A program made the position numbers and the translations under genes. Of a DNA stretch of 22,626 nucleotides, positions 1 through 5,383 are shown in pieces. Under the pieces are notes generated by a model. That model was not told where the DNA came from. It searched no databases and saw only the letters and a list, made by a program, of their open reading frames with translations. The DNA comes from a virus. The first letter of the stretch is position 1, and every line of letters starts with the position of its first letter. The stretch lies in IMG/VR virus record IMGVR_UViG_3300037584_000260, positions 1 to 22,626 of that record; one strand, written 5' to 3'.

Positions 1-385
1 CAGGTATTTCTTCATATAGTTTTATATTTAGAATACCATCTTTGAAATCAGCCGAATCTACTTTGATGTATTCAGACAAAGTAAACTTTCGTACAACACT
101 TCTTGATGCGATACCTTGATGTATTAAGTTATCACTATCTTTGTTTTCTTTCTTGGCTTGAATAGTAAGCACACCTTCTTGTAACTCACATTCAATATCA
201 GACTTAGTGAAACCAGCTAATGCCATTTCTATCTGATACTTACCCTTACCAACTTTTCTTATGTTGTATGGAGGAAAGTTAGAAGTGTTTATTCTAGATA
301 CCTCATTTAGTGAATTGAACATTCTATCAAAACCAATAGAAAAATTTCTAAATGGGTCAAAATTTATTAAATCGTATTGTGTCAT
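1..385 (-). CDS. hsp20: Small heat-shock protein, Hsp20/IbpA type (partial, C-terminus beyond window)
   Basis: This gene encodes an ATP-independent holdase chaperone that binds unfolding proteins. The visible 128 residues start at the ATG at 385-383, behind an AAAGGA ribosome site at 397-392 (6-base spacing). The short N-terminal arm (residues 1-36, with DPF and FDRMF) is followed by the IbpA-like PPYNI at 38-42. The alpha-crystallin domain runs from about 43, with EMALAGFTKSDIE at 53-65, GVLTIQAKKE at 71-80, and the conserved end DGILNIKLYEEIP at 116-128. The window edge cuts the gene just where the family has its C-terminal I/V-x-I/V tail. It has its own consensus promoter and a 55-base leader, so it can be expressed apart from the structural operon upstream. 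Hsp20 is known from marine T4-like cyanophages. Here it sits beside ejection-protein genes and may help virion protein folding; that role is inferred. Confidence 0.93.
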   Translation of the reverse strand, partial: MTQYDLINFDPFRNFSIGFDRMFNSLNEVSRINTSNFPPYNIRKVGKGKYQIEMALAGFTKSDIECELQEGVLTIQAKKENKDSDNLIHQGIASRSVVRKFTLSEYIKVDSADFKDGILNIKLYEEIP

Positions 386-475: not shown

Positions 476-3400
476 CTACTTAAAAAAGAAGTTGAAAAAG
501 TCTTTATTTCTGCCCTCTAATTTAAAAGACTCACCATCCTTAGTATAACTTCTTTCATATTCTGCCTTCATTTTTTCTTCATTACCAGAGAATAATCCTT
601 TTCTAAATTCTTTAAATTTTTTAACACCACCTGAACCCATATTAAATTGAAAATCAATTAACATTTGTTTCTTTCTGTTATCTAATTTTAAATATTCATC
701 ACCATATATTTCAATTAATTTATCATGTGCTGCTTTTAAATCTCTTTTAAGTATATCATTAGCTTGAGGAACAGTTAATTTATTTATATCATATTCATAA
801 ATCTTTCCAGTTTCTATTTCTTCTTTAGTTAACTTGTGTCCATAAGCTACAGTATCAGTACCACCTTCAGCAGATTTATGTTGCATCATATTTTTGTTGC
901 CTAACATTAGCTTTTGATTTTCTACTTTCTTCATATAGTTTAAAAATTTATTATCTTCATATACAGGTAGTTTTTCTATTTTCTGTATATCTTTTTTCTT
1001 TTCATCATCTCTATCTACATAGCTATCATCTTCTACCAATTCTTTAACATACATATTTTCTGCAACAGAATCACTAGAAACTTTTTTAACAGGAAATTCT
1101 GAATCTACACCACCAATTAAATCTGATGTATCTATAACTTCACCACCCATTGAAAACTTTTTAATTTCTTTTAATCTACTTATTAATACACCTGAAGTAC
1201 CTATACCATATTTACTAGGTATTCTTTCTACTTTAAAATTTATACCTAATACTTTTTGTACAAAATCTTCTAATTCAGATTGTTTAAATCCTTTTTGAAA
1301 TGTTTTTTCTTTATTACCAAACAACCAACCATCTAAATACTTCTTAGCATTTTTAGATTTCTTAGCTTGATTAACTACATCATCACCTCTTGTTGTAATA
1401 ATAGCTATACCATCATCACTTAATAACTTACCTATCTGGTCTACAACTTTTATTCTTTCAGATGGATTCTCTATAACATTTAATACATTAAGATTTACTA
1501 TACCATCTTTAGATTTTAATCCATCTTTTAAAATAACTTCATCTGCTGTTTTATAATCTGGTAATTTACCTTTAGCTTTTACAATATCTTCTGATTTAAC
1601 AAATGGTTCATGACTTGTTACAATTTTATTTTTAAATTCTTTTGAACCTACTCCTTTACCTGAACCAAAATCATGTACTTTCTGTATTTTAAAATCATCA
1701 AATATTTTATTTGTTTTCGTATATGTACCTTTTGTAGTTGTTATTGCTGTCTTTGCTCTATTAATAGCAGATTTAGATACAGCTTTTGCAACAGCACCAC
1801 CAACACTCATTGGTATTTTAAAAGATTTATCAGTTAACTTTCCAACTTTAGGTGGATTCCATAATCTCATAATCCAATCTCTCCATTCAGGAAAAGGAAC
1901 AAATCTTCTACTAATAGTTTTCATAGCTGCATCAGTATCACCTTTGTATATTTGTTTTGCAGCAACAACTGGTTGTGATAATATTTGAAAACCTGGAGCA
2001 AATAAAAACCAAGGGTCTCTACCACCTGGTCCTATTGTTCTATTAAAGAACATATCAACAATCCATCCTTGAAGACCAGATAGTTGTCCAGCTTTAGCTA
2101 AAAATTCTGCAGAGTTTTTTGAAGGGTCAGTAATAACTTCACCATACTTTGCTAATTCTCTTAACTGTTGTATGCCACCATAAATAGGTATTACAGCTAA
2201 AGTTTTTATTAATGCTTTAGCATCTCCATTTTCTATTCTAGATAATAATCTATTTGTTTGTGCTGATTTAGCTTGAGTCCATGATAAAAACTGTCCTAAT
2301 ATTCTTATCCATGGAGTTTGACTTTGAGTAAATAATAATCTATTGTCTACTTGTGGAATCAATGCATCTCTATTAGCACCATTTATTCCAGCTTTATTTA
2401 AATAATTTTTACTAACAGAATCTTTTATTGCATCATCATAATTTTTAAACTTACCTATTTGTAAAGCTTGATTAGCTTCAATGTTATACATTCTTTTTAA
2501 TTTTTCTTGTAAGTTTAATGCTGCATTACTATTTTTACCAGATTTATTTACTGCATTAAAGTAACTTCTTGATAACATTTGAGCATCAATAGTTCCAGCA
2601 TTATATGCAAATCTTCTAGCATATCCAGTTAACCATTGTAATCCTAATAATTTAAATGCTAAATTATTTGTTAATGCTATCTTATCTTTCTTAGCAAAAT
2701 TACTTACCCAACTATTACTTAATAAAACATTATTACCTTCTAGTCCTGCAGACCTTGCAACTGCTTTTGACATCTCATCAGTAATATCTAAATTTAAATT
2801 TCTTGCTGGTCCTTTTTCTGCAGCAGCTCTTAAATTAGTTCTTGTTAATCCTTTTATTGCTGAAGTCCAATTAGCAGATAACTGCCATGGTTGAATTAAA
2901 TCACCTAAAGATGATATAGTTACTCTGCCTAGCATATTTAAATTAGCTAACATAGATACAATACCAACAGAAGCTTTTAATTGATTTCTTCCTGCAGCAC
3001 CATATCTATCAAAGTATGCATCAATACTTTTTATAATTAAATCTGATTCTTCTCTAACTCCTTGTGCTTTTTGTGCATCAGTTAAATTAGCTTTAGCATA
3101 TTTACCTCTAATTTCTTGAACAAGAGGTTTTAATAATTCACCATTCTTACCAAATTTTCTAGCAAATGCTACAGACTTAACAGAGTCAGTAACTACTTTA
3201 CCTAATGTATCTCTAACATCATTTATTAGAAATCCATTCTTTTCTAAAACTTCTTCTACTATTTTATAAGGACCATTTAAAGTTCTTTGATGAATAATAT
3301 GGTCACTAACTGGAGTATATATTAATTCTTTTTCACTAAGTTTTCTTTGTGCTGTTTTATAATTTGAATCAGCAACTAAATCTTTCCAAGCATTAGCATT

Positions 3401-5383
3401 GATAACACTATTGTAACCATTCTTATGTCCTTTTAAATAATTTTCTGCAGCAACTTCTGCTTTCAATCTGTTATAATTTGGATTAGGTGTTACCTTATCA
3501 CTTAAAAATTTATTTGTTATTCTACCTTTTATTCCTAAATCTTCATATATTTTTGTAATAACTTTTGTTGCAAATTTTTCATCTGCATCTATCTTATCCC
3601 AATTTAATTGTCTTGGAAAATAATCATCAATATTTTTTGGAGAGAAAAATCCTGATTGATTGTATAAAGTTTTAAATTCATCTAAGTAATCTTTAATATC
3701 TACTGATAATTTTTTTACTTTTGCTGATGCTGTTTTTTGTAATTCAATATTACCTCTTGCTATAGCAATAGCTTGTGCTTGTTCTACTTGAGTAGCATCT
3801 CCAACCATATCATCTAATTTTCTTAGAAAATATCTTTCCATTGCATCTGCTTGAGCAGCTACAGATTTGTCTTGTAAAGGGTCATCTACTCCTCTAAAAA
3901 ATAATCTACTAAATCTTTCTGTTGCACCACCAAATGATTTTAATTTTGTATATGAAGTTCCTGAAGTTAACTCTCTTACTTTTTGTAAAGTAAATTTAGC
4001 AGCATCACTATCTATAAATTTATAAATTTTTTGTTTATCACCTATTTGAAATTTTTTACTACCTTGAATTGCTTTTTGTGTTGCTCCAAAAAATGCACCT
4101 GCTGCAACAAACTTCCAAAAATCTTCTTCTTCACCAAATAATATATTACCACCAGCACCTACAGCACCACCCATTAAAGGTTTAGTAATATTTACCATTA
4201 ATGCTTTGTATGCTTTCTGTGCAAAGTTATCTGTTAATTGTATTTGTTCTATAATCTTTGCAGTTCTCTTACCTTCTAATTGATAGTATCGTAATAATTT
4301 TTCTGATTGTCTTGTTACTAATCTTGCTTTTTCTTTTTCAAATGCTTTTCTTGATGCTTGAAGATTGTTTCTTAGTTCAACTATTTGTTGCACTCCTGAC
4401 TTTCTCATCTTGAGAGCATCTCTAGGATTAATAATAGTTTGAGTTTTATCTTTTACAACATCTCTTAACCATTTATTAGAATTTCTAATTGCCTTTGTTT
4501 GATTATATACATCTTTTTTTAATTGATTTAATTTATTAAACTCTTTAGAAATAGGAGCATAATAATTAGTAGCCCATTGGTCTAATTCTTTTGTAACTTT
4601 TTTAACAGGGTCTGTATTGGAAATTTTTCTAAGTCTAATTAATTCATCATCTGATAACTTATTAGAGTTTGCAAGTTTACCATCAATCCATTTAGCTATT
4701 TTATTAGCTTCATTTTTTGTAGCACTAGGTAAATATTTTTTAACAATGTTTGCACCTATTGGAAACACTAAACCAATTGCAGCACCAGTACCAGCAGAAG
4801 CACCTGCTTCAACCCAATCAACTTCTCCTTTTCTTGCAAGTTGATTTACTATATTACCACCACCAATTAAACCAGCATTAAGTGCCATAGATGTAACTGG
4901 ACTAGCTAACAAAGGTCTACCAAAGAAATAACCAGTTAGATAATAAGGGTCAGATAACCATGATGCAGCACTACCTATTGTAGTATACTTACCATCATAT
5001 TTACCAGATAAAAATTTTGCGTGTTCTTTTTCAAAGTCAGCTTTTCTTTCTGCTTCATTTTCTAATATATAATCTTTGAAAGTTTTATTAGGGTCAAAAA
5101 CATCTTGAAGTTTTGCTCTTGCAATTCTTAATGCATCACCTGCAACCCATGTTTCTTTATCAAAACCATATTCTAGTTTTTCCCAAGTACTAGGTTCTTC
5201 AAGTTCTTTTTCACTTTTACCAATCGTATCAATACCTACACCACCTACTAAGTCTGATGTATCTATTGTTGAAATTGTATCTGTTTTTAAAGTTTGATTT
5301 GTTTCTTGAGAACTAACTTCTGGTTTTAGAGGTACTCCACCAACTAAATCTGATGTGTCTATTGTTAAAGCTTGTGTCGCCAT
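476..5383 (-). CDS. Giant ejection-type virion protein with methyltransferase-like and lysozyme-like domains
   Basis: A 1635-residue protein, probably carried in the virion and delivered with the DNA, comparable in role to T7 gp16. Residues 8-17 and 40-49 repeat IDTSDLVGGV. A hydrophobic Gly/Ala-rich stretch at about 150-213 and another in the 400s could contact membranes. The middle is helical and has DDYFPRQL near 588, a GRVTISSLGDLIQPWQ segment near 825 and GQFLSWTQAKSAQTN near 1030; I recall similar segments in large marine-phage ejection proteins. Residues about 1225-1400 look like a Rossmann methyltransferase: DFGSGKG (1238-1244), HEPF (1258-1261), VNLNVLNVIENPSER (1296-1310), ITTR (1329-1332). 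A third IDTSDLIGGV lies at 1417-1426. The C-terminus (about 1478-1635) resembles GH24 lysozymes: E1488, then HKSAEGGTDTVAYGHKLT (1502-1519), then NMGSGG and an EYERSYTKDG segment. The start at 5383 has no strong ribosome site, and the gap to the previous gene is 10 bases. Confidence 0.8.
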   Translation of the reverse strand: MATQALTIDTSDLVGGVPLKPEVSSQETNQTLKTDTISTIDTSDLVGGVGIDTIGKSEKELEEPSTWEKLEYGFDKETWVAGDALRIARAKLQDVFDPNKTFKDYILENEAERKADFEKEHAKFLSGKYDGKYTTIGSAASWLSDPYYLTGYFFGRPLLASPVTSMALNAGLIGGGNIVNQLARKGEVDWVEAGASAGTGAAIGLVFPIGANIVKKYLPSATKNEANKIAKWIDGKLANSNKLSDDELIRLRKISNTDPVKKVTKELDQWATNYYAPISKEFNKLNQLKKDVYNQTKAIRNSNKWLRDVVKDKTQTIINPRDALKMRKSGVQQIVELRNNLQASRKAFEKEKARLVTRQSEKLLRYYQLEGKRTAKIIEQIQLTDNFAQKAYKALMVNITKPLMGGAVGAGGNILFGEEEDFWKFVAAGAFFGATQKAIQGSKKFQIGDKQKIYKFIDSDAAKFTLQKVRELTSGTSYTKLKSFGGATERFSRLFFRGVDDPLQDKSVAAQADAMERYFLRKLDDMVGDATQVEQAQAIAIARGNIELQKTASAKVKKLSVDIKDYLDEFKTLYNQSGFFSPKNIDDYFPRQLNWDKIDADEKFATKVITKIYEDLGIKGRITNKFLSDKVTPNPNYNRLKAEVAAENYLKGHKNGYNSVINANAWKDLVADSNYKTAQRKLSEKELIYTPVSDHIIHQRTLNGPYKIVEEVLEKNGFLINDVRDTLGKVVTDSVKSVAFARKFGKNGELLKPLVQEIRGKYAKANLTDAQKAQGVREESDLIIKSIDAYFDRYGAAGRNQLKASVGIVSMLANLNMLGRVTISSLGDLIQPWQLSANWTSAIKGLTRTNLRAAAEKGPARNLNLDITDEMSKAVARSAGLEGNNVLLSNSWVSNFAKKDKIALTNNLAFKLLGLQWLTGYARRFAYNAGTIDAQMLSRSYFNAVNKSGKNSNAALNLQEKLKRMYNIEANQALQIGKFKNYDDAIKDSVSKNYLNKAGINGANRDALIPQVDNRLLFTQSQTPWIRILGQFLSWTQAKSAQTNRLLSRIENGDAKALIKTLAVIPIYGGIQQLRELAKYGEVITDPSKNSAEFLAKAGQLSGLQGWIVDMFFNRTIGPGGRDPWFLFAPGFQILSQPVVAAKQIYKGDTDAAMKTISRRFVPFPEWRDWIMRLWNPPKVGKLTDKSFKIPMSVGGAVAKAVSKSAINRAKTAITTTKGTYTKTNKIFDDFKIQKVHDFGSGKGVGSKEFKNKIVTSHEPFVKSEDIVKAKGKLPDYKTADEVILKDGLKSKDGIVNLNVLNVIENPSERIKVVDQIGKLLSDDGIAIITTRGDDVVNQAKKSKNAKKYLDGWLFGNKEKTFQKGFKQSELEDFVQKVLGINFKVERIPSKYGIGTSGVLISRLKEIKKFSMGGEVIDTSDLIGGVDSEFPVKKVSSDSVAENMYVKELVEDDSYVDRDDEKKKDIQKIEKLPVYEDNKFLNYMKKVENQKLMLGNKNMMQHKSAEGGTDTVAYGHKLTKEEIETGKIYEYDINKLTVPQANDILKRDLKAAHDKLIEIYGDEYLKLDNRKKQMLIDFQFNMGSGGVKKFKEFRKGLFSGNEEKMKAEYERSYTKDGESFKLEGRNKDFFNFFFK

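Follow-up and report, generated by a model that had tools for sequence, protein, structure and literature searches.

A predicted methyltransferase module, carried as an exchangeable cassette, in a putative ejection protein of a marine podophage

The locus and its carrier protein

The stretch of DNA analysed here (the window) comprises all 22,626 bases of an IMG/VR virus record, with late genes of a podophage on its minus strand. The last large one encodes a protein orthologous to HTVC103P gp52 and HTVC104P gp54, both annotated as "hypothetical" (37–38% identity over 95% of the length); its backbone is 35% identical to that of HTVC103P gp52 over 1159 columns. HTVC103P and HTVC104P carry morphogenesis genes of the HMO-2011 type (PMC8528129), and the source of the window is a marine, SAR11-type, HTVC103P-like pelagiphage. 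At the edge of the window (2–385) lies a partial gene; at this position, immediately following the gene for the ejection protein, an Hsp20-family gene is found in HTVC103P, HTVC104P and HTVC115P. Among the morphogenesis genes of the pelagiphage HTVC115P, gp46 (L003, 580–1029) is annotated as a toxin-activating lysine-acyltransferase.

The carrier protein combines a long backbone with a methyltransferase module and a lysozyme domain (Table 1). It also contains three copies of a short tag. At the corresponding places, the proteins of other phages repeat a tag of their own (LSxLEGV in HTVC103P, DVFSQFKVTEP in HTVC104P, LDFS in L009 and L010). The copies within one protein thus co-vary, as if the tag served a binding partner or a processing enzyme.

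Table 1. Features of the carrier gene and protein, in window coordinates
Feature	Position	Strand	Basis or remark
Giant protein, putatively ejected (coding sequence)	476..5383	-	1635 residues, zero cysteine; last large late gene
Tag IDTSDLVGGV, copy 1, N-terminus	5333..5362	-	Sequence
Tag IDTSDLVGGV, copy 2	5237..5266	-	Sequence
All-helical core, residues 473-874, likeness to T7 gp16-type ejectosome	2762..3967	-	AF2 backbone model and VIA
Methyltransferase module, residues 1205-1406	1166..1771	-	AF2 (pLDDT 90.2, pTM 0.84); Foldseek and VIA matches
Motif I DFGSGKG, residues 1238-1244, predicted SAM-binding glycine loop	1652..1672	-	Alignment, sequence
HEPF, residues 1258-1261, acidic residue after strand 2	1601..1612	-	Alignment, AF2 model
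VNLNVLNVIENPSER, residues 1296-1310, strand 4 with the asparagines presumed to be in the active site; common to TIGR04096	1454..1498	-	Alignments
ITTR, residues 1329-1332, end of strand 5	1388..1399	-	Alignment
TFQKG, residues 1361-1365, signature common to TIGR04096	1289..1303	-	Alignments
FSMGG linker after the module, F-x-x-GG junction	1142..1156	-	Sequence
Tag IDTSDLIGGV, copy 3, after the module and before the lysozyme domain	1106..1135	-	Sequence
Phage_lysozyme domain, residues 1506-1617	533..868	-	PF00959, E 8e-6, above Pfam cut-off

The AF2 model of the backbone (residues 61–1190), which has moderate confidence (mean pLDDT 64), is all-helical. In VIA-align, the four highest rows for its core were without exception chains of podophage cores or ejectosomes (9jyy_I, Z 15.0; 8vb2_A, 12.3; 9vvp_O, 12.1; 7eyb_I, 11.7), and the next row was an unrelated structure at Z 9.2. 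Of these chains, 9jyy_I is from mature T7 and 8vb2_A from the PhiM1 C4 ejectosome. Judging from their lengths of 1101–1223 modelled residues, we take all four to be tetrameric ejection proteins of the gp16 type, as described for PhiM1 (PMC11440229). Foldseek searches with the backbone model gave no significant E-values and did not detect the gp16 likeness, and sequence searches against PDB that included the backbone yielded no match to gp16 and nothing significant. Since the likeness was seen only in this second look by VIA-align and not by Foldseek, we regard it as good but not conclusive. Taken with the lysozyme domain and the place of the gene, it suggests that the carrier is most likely an ejection protein, in line with the first-pass annotation, which had described a giant ejected virion protein. 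A published virion proteome of the carrier was not found in the literature.

Fold and kinship of the methyltransferase module

The first-pass annotation had placed a methyltransferase-like domain at 1184–1711, which is exactly residues 1225–1400, and had quoted the motifs DFGSGKG, HEPF, VNLNVLNVIENPSER and ITTR, all of which are there. Its location holds, but its extent does not: the real domain is longer (about residues 1205–1406, window 1166–1771) and includes TFQKG as an extra conserved motif.

The AF2 model of residues 1195–1427, built from an alignment of 51 relatives, is confident (mean pLDDT 90.2, pTM 0.84) and shows ordered structure from about residue 1205 to 1406. Foldseek against PDB returned 549 matches at E < 0.001, and the best listed among them were SAM-dependent methyltransferases, with glycine sarcosine N-methyltransferase first (E 2e-8) and Trm9 and METTL6 also present. 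By VIA-align, the best match was 2p8j (Z 16.6, rmsd 3.2 over 178 residues), and METTL6 scored Z 16.2. Model and both structure comparisons thus agree on the Rossmann-like fold of SAM-methyltransferases which had been read from the motifs, and for which an AlphaFold comparison with methyltransferases had been suggested.

At the sequence level, the domain had no significant match in PDB, and PADLOC assigned it to no defence family. It matched Methyltransf_23 with E 4e-5, below Pfam's curated cut-off, and its best family match was TIGR04096, a DNA phosphorothioation-associated putative methyltransferase (E 3.8e-8, 32.5 bits). Relatives of the domain are encoded on 264 IMG/VR stretches. In an alignment of 51 diverse members, 17 columns are invariant, including D1238, G1240, G1242, G1244, E1259, the strand-4 asparagine N1302, R1310, R1332 and Q1363. 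Because of the two family matches, the number of relatives and the invariant residues, we consider the domain more than a chance resemblance. The hallmarks of class I SAM-dependent methyltransferases, D-x-G-x-G-x-G and an acidic residue after strand 2, are present and invariant; from the fold, the acidic residue of HEPF is expected to bind the SAM ribose. The dN/dS of the module ranges from 0.09 to 0.51, and the module is under purifying selection. Given the modelled fold with its PDB matches, the invariant presumed active-site residues and the dN/dS values, the prediction of a functional class I SAM-methyltransferase fold is well supported, and we infer catalysis from it. That the module should instead be a catalytically dead spacer, or a SAM- or ligand-binding structural part of the core, seems very improbable to us: ejection proteins are indeed mosaic and recurring F-N-x-GG linkers flank the module as they would any spacer, but the SAM-binding motif and the polar, presumed active-site residues are invariant across very different carriers, and stand-alone versions exist.

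With 32.5 bits, the domain falls far short of the curated TIGR04096 cut-off of 150 bits, and hmmscan aligns only about 90 residues of the 478-position model. Eight genomic TIGR04096 members were collected for comparison. A profile built from seven of these matched the phage profile in hhalign (probability 98.6, E 5e-16), and in this alignment the signatures VN-x3-LNV and TFQK line up. In the reciprocal search of the phage profile against 398 genomes, TIGR04096 genes were among the strongest cellular matches (best 3.9e-11), outranked by a single phage-like contig. The phage domain is thus a relative, not a member, of TIGR04096, and the likeness to a Dnd phosphorothioation-associated methyltransferase family noted in the first-pass annotation was right as kinship. 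Three of the eight genomes have a dndC gene no more than about 6 kb away from that for TIGR04096; beside the window gene, dnd genes are absent and the neighbours are phage structural genes and an Hsp20-like gene.

The same annotation had raised the possibility that the module methylates the incoming phage DNA and thereby protects it. DarB of phage P1 protects incoming DNA by methylation, and the nearest cellular relatives of the module are associated with phosphorothioation, in three genomes with dndC nearby. DNA methylases do occur in polyvalent proteins; those described there, however, are NPP(Y/F) adenine enzymes of the DarB type, with LPD36 and fused to an SF2 helicase (PMC5512222). In the window protein, a motif search found [DNS]PP[YFW] nowhere in the 1635 residues, the same residues include no cysteine for a C5-type mechanism, and family profile scans found no helicase or DNA-recognition partner domain. 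Further, the enzymes of known structure that come closest in fold act on small molecules, tRNA or protein and are not DNA-base methyltransferases. With the motifs, the cysteine and the helicase partner missing, protection of incoming DNA by the module is a weak hypothesis, and we think it quite unlikely.

Occurrence of the module and its exchange between phages

We surveyed 77 IMG/VR proteins with a homologous backbone and a complete C-terminus. The module is fused in 21 of these, encoded in an adjacent reading frame in 3 and missing from 53, so that 24 of the 77 have it, a proportion that is approximate because some contigs are near-duplicates. Module and backbone disagree in their relationships: L020 and L035 share 96% identity in the module (97.8% at the nucleotide level) and 38% in the backbone, L020 and L027 97% and 54%, whereas HTVC103P and L035 share 63% in the module and 72% in the backbone. 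AU tests rejected the grouping of the module for the backbone data (p 1e-5) and that of the backbone for the module data (p 0.005). The module is an accessory cassette, moved between phages by recombination. Among the ejection proteins without methyltransferase (L104–L150), the C-terminal tails often have a conserved hydrophobic segment, MNIKDTVKAxVVAGxxATGVNAD, with an internal methionine at the same position.

The murein hydrolase that accompanies the module is a phage lysozyme in some relatives and a glucosaminidase in others, and it stands either before or after the methyltransferase. The position between body and lysozyme noted in the first-pass annotation is correct for the window protein, but as a rule it had to be rejected, given the reversed order and other hydrolase type in relatives. 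A linker of the form F-N-(I/V/L)-GG or a close variant precedes the module in every ejection-protein fusion of the group (junctions in L008–L050) and is missing from the portal-side relatives; it is a possible recombination or cleavage site. Two contigs (L017, L030) have a stop codon just before the linker and an ATG directly after it, parting the module from the hydrolase. Unless this is a sequencing error, covalent attachment of the module may be dispensable. In-frame TAA codons with ATG codons downstream were seen in three contigs (L017 at 4989, L030 at 1070, L033 at 590), where they split the hydrolase from the methyltransferase or the backbone from the rest; they could reflect separate translation or sequence error.

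Relatives of the domain also occur in other carriers. Stand-alone proteins of about 200–320 residues are encoded between the genes for terminase large subunit and portal (L059, L066 and, by gene order, L069), upstream of terminase (L071) and in the major head protein gene block (L077). The roseophages CRP-3 and CRP-738 have the domain in a large protein encoded right after the portal gene. In the mycobacteriophages Bigswole, Myrna and ScoobyDoobyDoo it is found in a protein of 1200–1320 residues, encoded two genes before the major capsid protein and ahead of the minor capsid and major head protein genes; the cryo-EM paper on Myrna describes gp98 and does not mention the neighbouring methyltransferase-bearing gp97 in its text. 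Two phage contigs encode a cytidylyltransferase-like domain fused to the methyltransferase (L061, 3935–5740; L070, 3686–5101). The largest carrier (L065, 3558–13667) has 3370 residues, with a weak LPD22 match, the methyltransferase at about 1481–1680 and, directly after it, ART-PolyVal at 1714–1887 (E 4e-19); its gene has a possible acetyltransferase gene upstream and a tail-fibre-like gene downstream. The plasmids searched contained no relative of the domain, and a peptide pattern search of bacterial genomes yielded one contig only, with an open frame of 1110 residues, whose architecture makes a phage origin likely.

Such gene neighbourhoods might also mean that the methyltransferase acts in the producing cell during assembly, on head, portal or core proteins or on the DNA being packaged, and is unneeded after ejection. 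The stand-alone genes next to terminase, portal and head genes fit this, as does the position of the mycobacteriophage carrier gene. However, of 77 ejection proteins that resemble each other in other respects, only 24 have the domain, a patchy distribution which argues that the assembly pathway is independent of the module, and in L065 the methyltransferase adjoins an ART-PolyVal effector domain. We consider action during assembly unlikely.

For the favoured reading, of a protein that travels in the virion, it is relevant that the domain stays among genes for head, portal and ejection proteins, where such proteins are usually encoded; we infer the virion association of the carrier from this context. 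With stand-alone relatives encoded between terminase and portal, and another that adjoins ART-PolyVal in the 3370-residue protein, the domain belongs to polyvalent-protein biology, where the first-pass annotation had seen it. The window protein itself combines several unrelated enzymatic domains, a methyltransferase and a lysozyme, on an ejection backbone, as polyvalent proteins do. Enzymes in ejection and polyvalent proteins are already known; a methyltransferase of this clade was not found among them in the main text of Iyer et al. 2017 (PMC5512222) nor elsewhere in the open-licence literature searched.

Proposed role and comparison with known systems

SAR11 phages are among the most numerous marine viruses, yet to our knowledge hardly anything has been learned about the way in which they cope with host defences during the first minutes. 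We judge it fairly probable that the module is an ejected methyltransferase effector which acts early in infection and which is carried, as a swappable cassette, C-terminally on an ejection protein of the gp16 type. The ejection protein would be packaged in the phage head, exit via the tail at infection and form a trans-envelope channel. Its hydrolase would open the murein, and its C-terminal part would reach the cytoplasm, where SAM is available and where the methyltransferase could modify a target in the newly infected cell. This target is most likely a host macromolecule, i.e. a protein, RNA or other component of defence or takeover. That the module is accessory, is swapped between phages and in one relative adjoins an ADP-ribosyltransferase speaks for an effector or counter-defence enzyme and less for a core function in assembly. 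There is a tension in this account, in that the lysozyme, which works in the periplasm, is at the same end of the protein as the module; the two activities would need different compartments. Also counted against it are the moderate backbone model (pLDDT 64), the lack of a sequence match to gp16 and the stop codons in L017 and L030.

A more specific version is speculative, and we consider it unlikely: the module might represent a virion-delivered branch of the Dnd-associated clade that acts on host defence when the DNA enters, for instance on sulfur-modified DNA, a nucleotide signal or a protein of the defence. Ejected methyltransferases would then include, besides DarB, a second class, which abundant phages of the ocean exchange as a cassette.

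A compact and, by its model, well-folded methyltransferase on a putative ejection protein, swapped between lineages, is a definite candidate for an early effector. It would link TIGR04096, so far a family of the DNA-sulfur islands of bacteria only, to phage virions, and the substrate of either, once found, would inform the other. Polyvalent proteins would further hold a methyltransferase class distinct from the adenine methylases of the DarB type.

Among known systems, polyvalent proteins (Iyer et al. 2017, PMC5512222) resemble the window protein in being multidomain, in their virion-associated gene context and in mixing an enzyme with a murein hydrolase. The difference to their DarB-type methylases is that the window domain belongs to another methyltransferase clade, without NPP(Y/F) motif or helicase partner. 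TIGR04096 is homologous over most of the domain, and D-x-G-x-G-x-G, VN-x3-LNV, E-R and TFQK are found in both; yet its large second part is missing from the phage domain, and the phage carriers sit among viral head and ejection genes, not in dnd islands. The closest relatives of the whole protein, the orthologous carriers HTVC103P gp52 and HTVC104P gp54, have the same module (about 70% identical) but another hydrolase after it, whereas HTVC115P gp40 shares the backbone but lacks the module.

T7 gp16 and the PhiM1 tetrameric ejection protein are, like the window carrier as modelled, giant all-helical internal proteins with a murein hydrolase, and have the closest core structure. T7 gp16 differs in lacking a methyltransferase and any sequence similarity, and in having its murein hydrolase at the N-terminus, in the periplasm, whereas that of the window carrier is at the C-terminal end; hydrolase domain swapping is known among ejection proteins (PMC8954989). 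The C-terminal part of T7 gp16 is thought to be cytoplasmic (PMC8954989), and the module likewise lies C-terminal to the gp16-like core.
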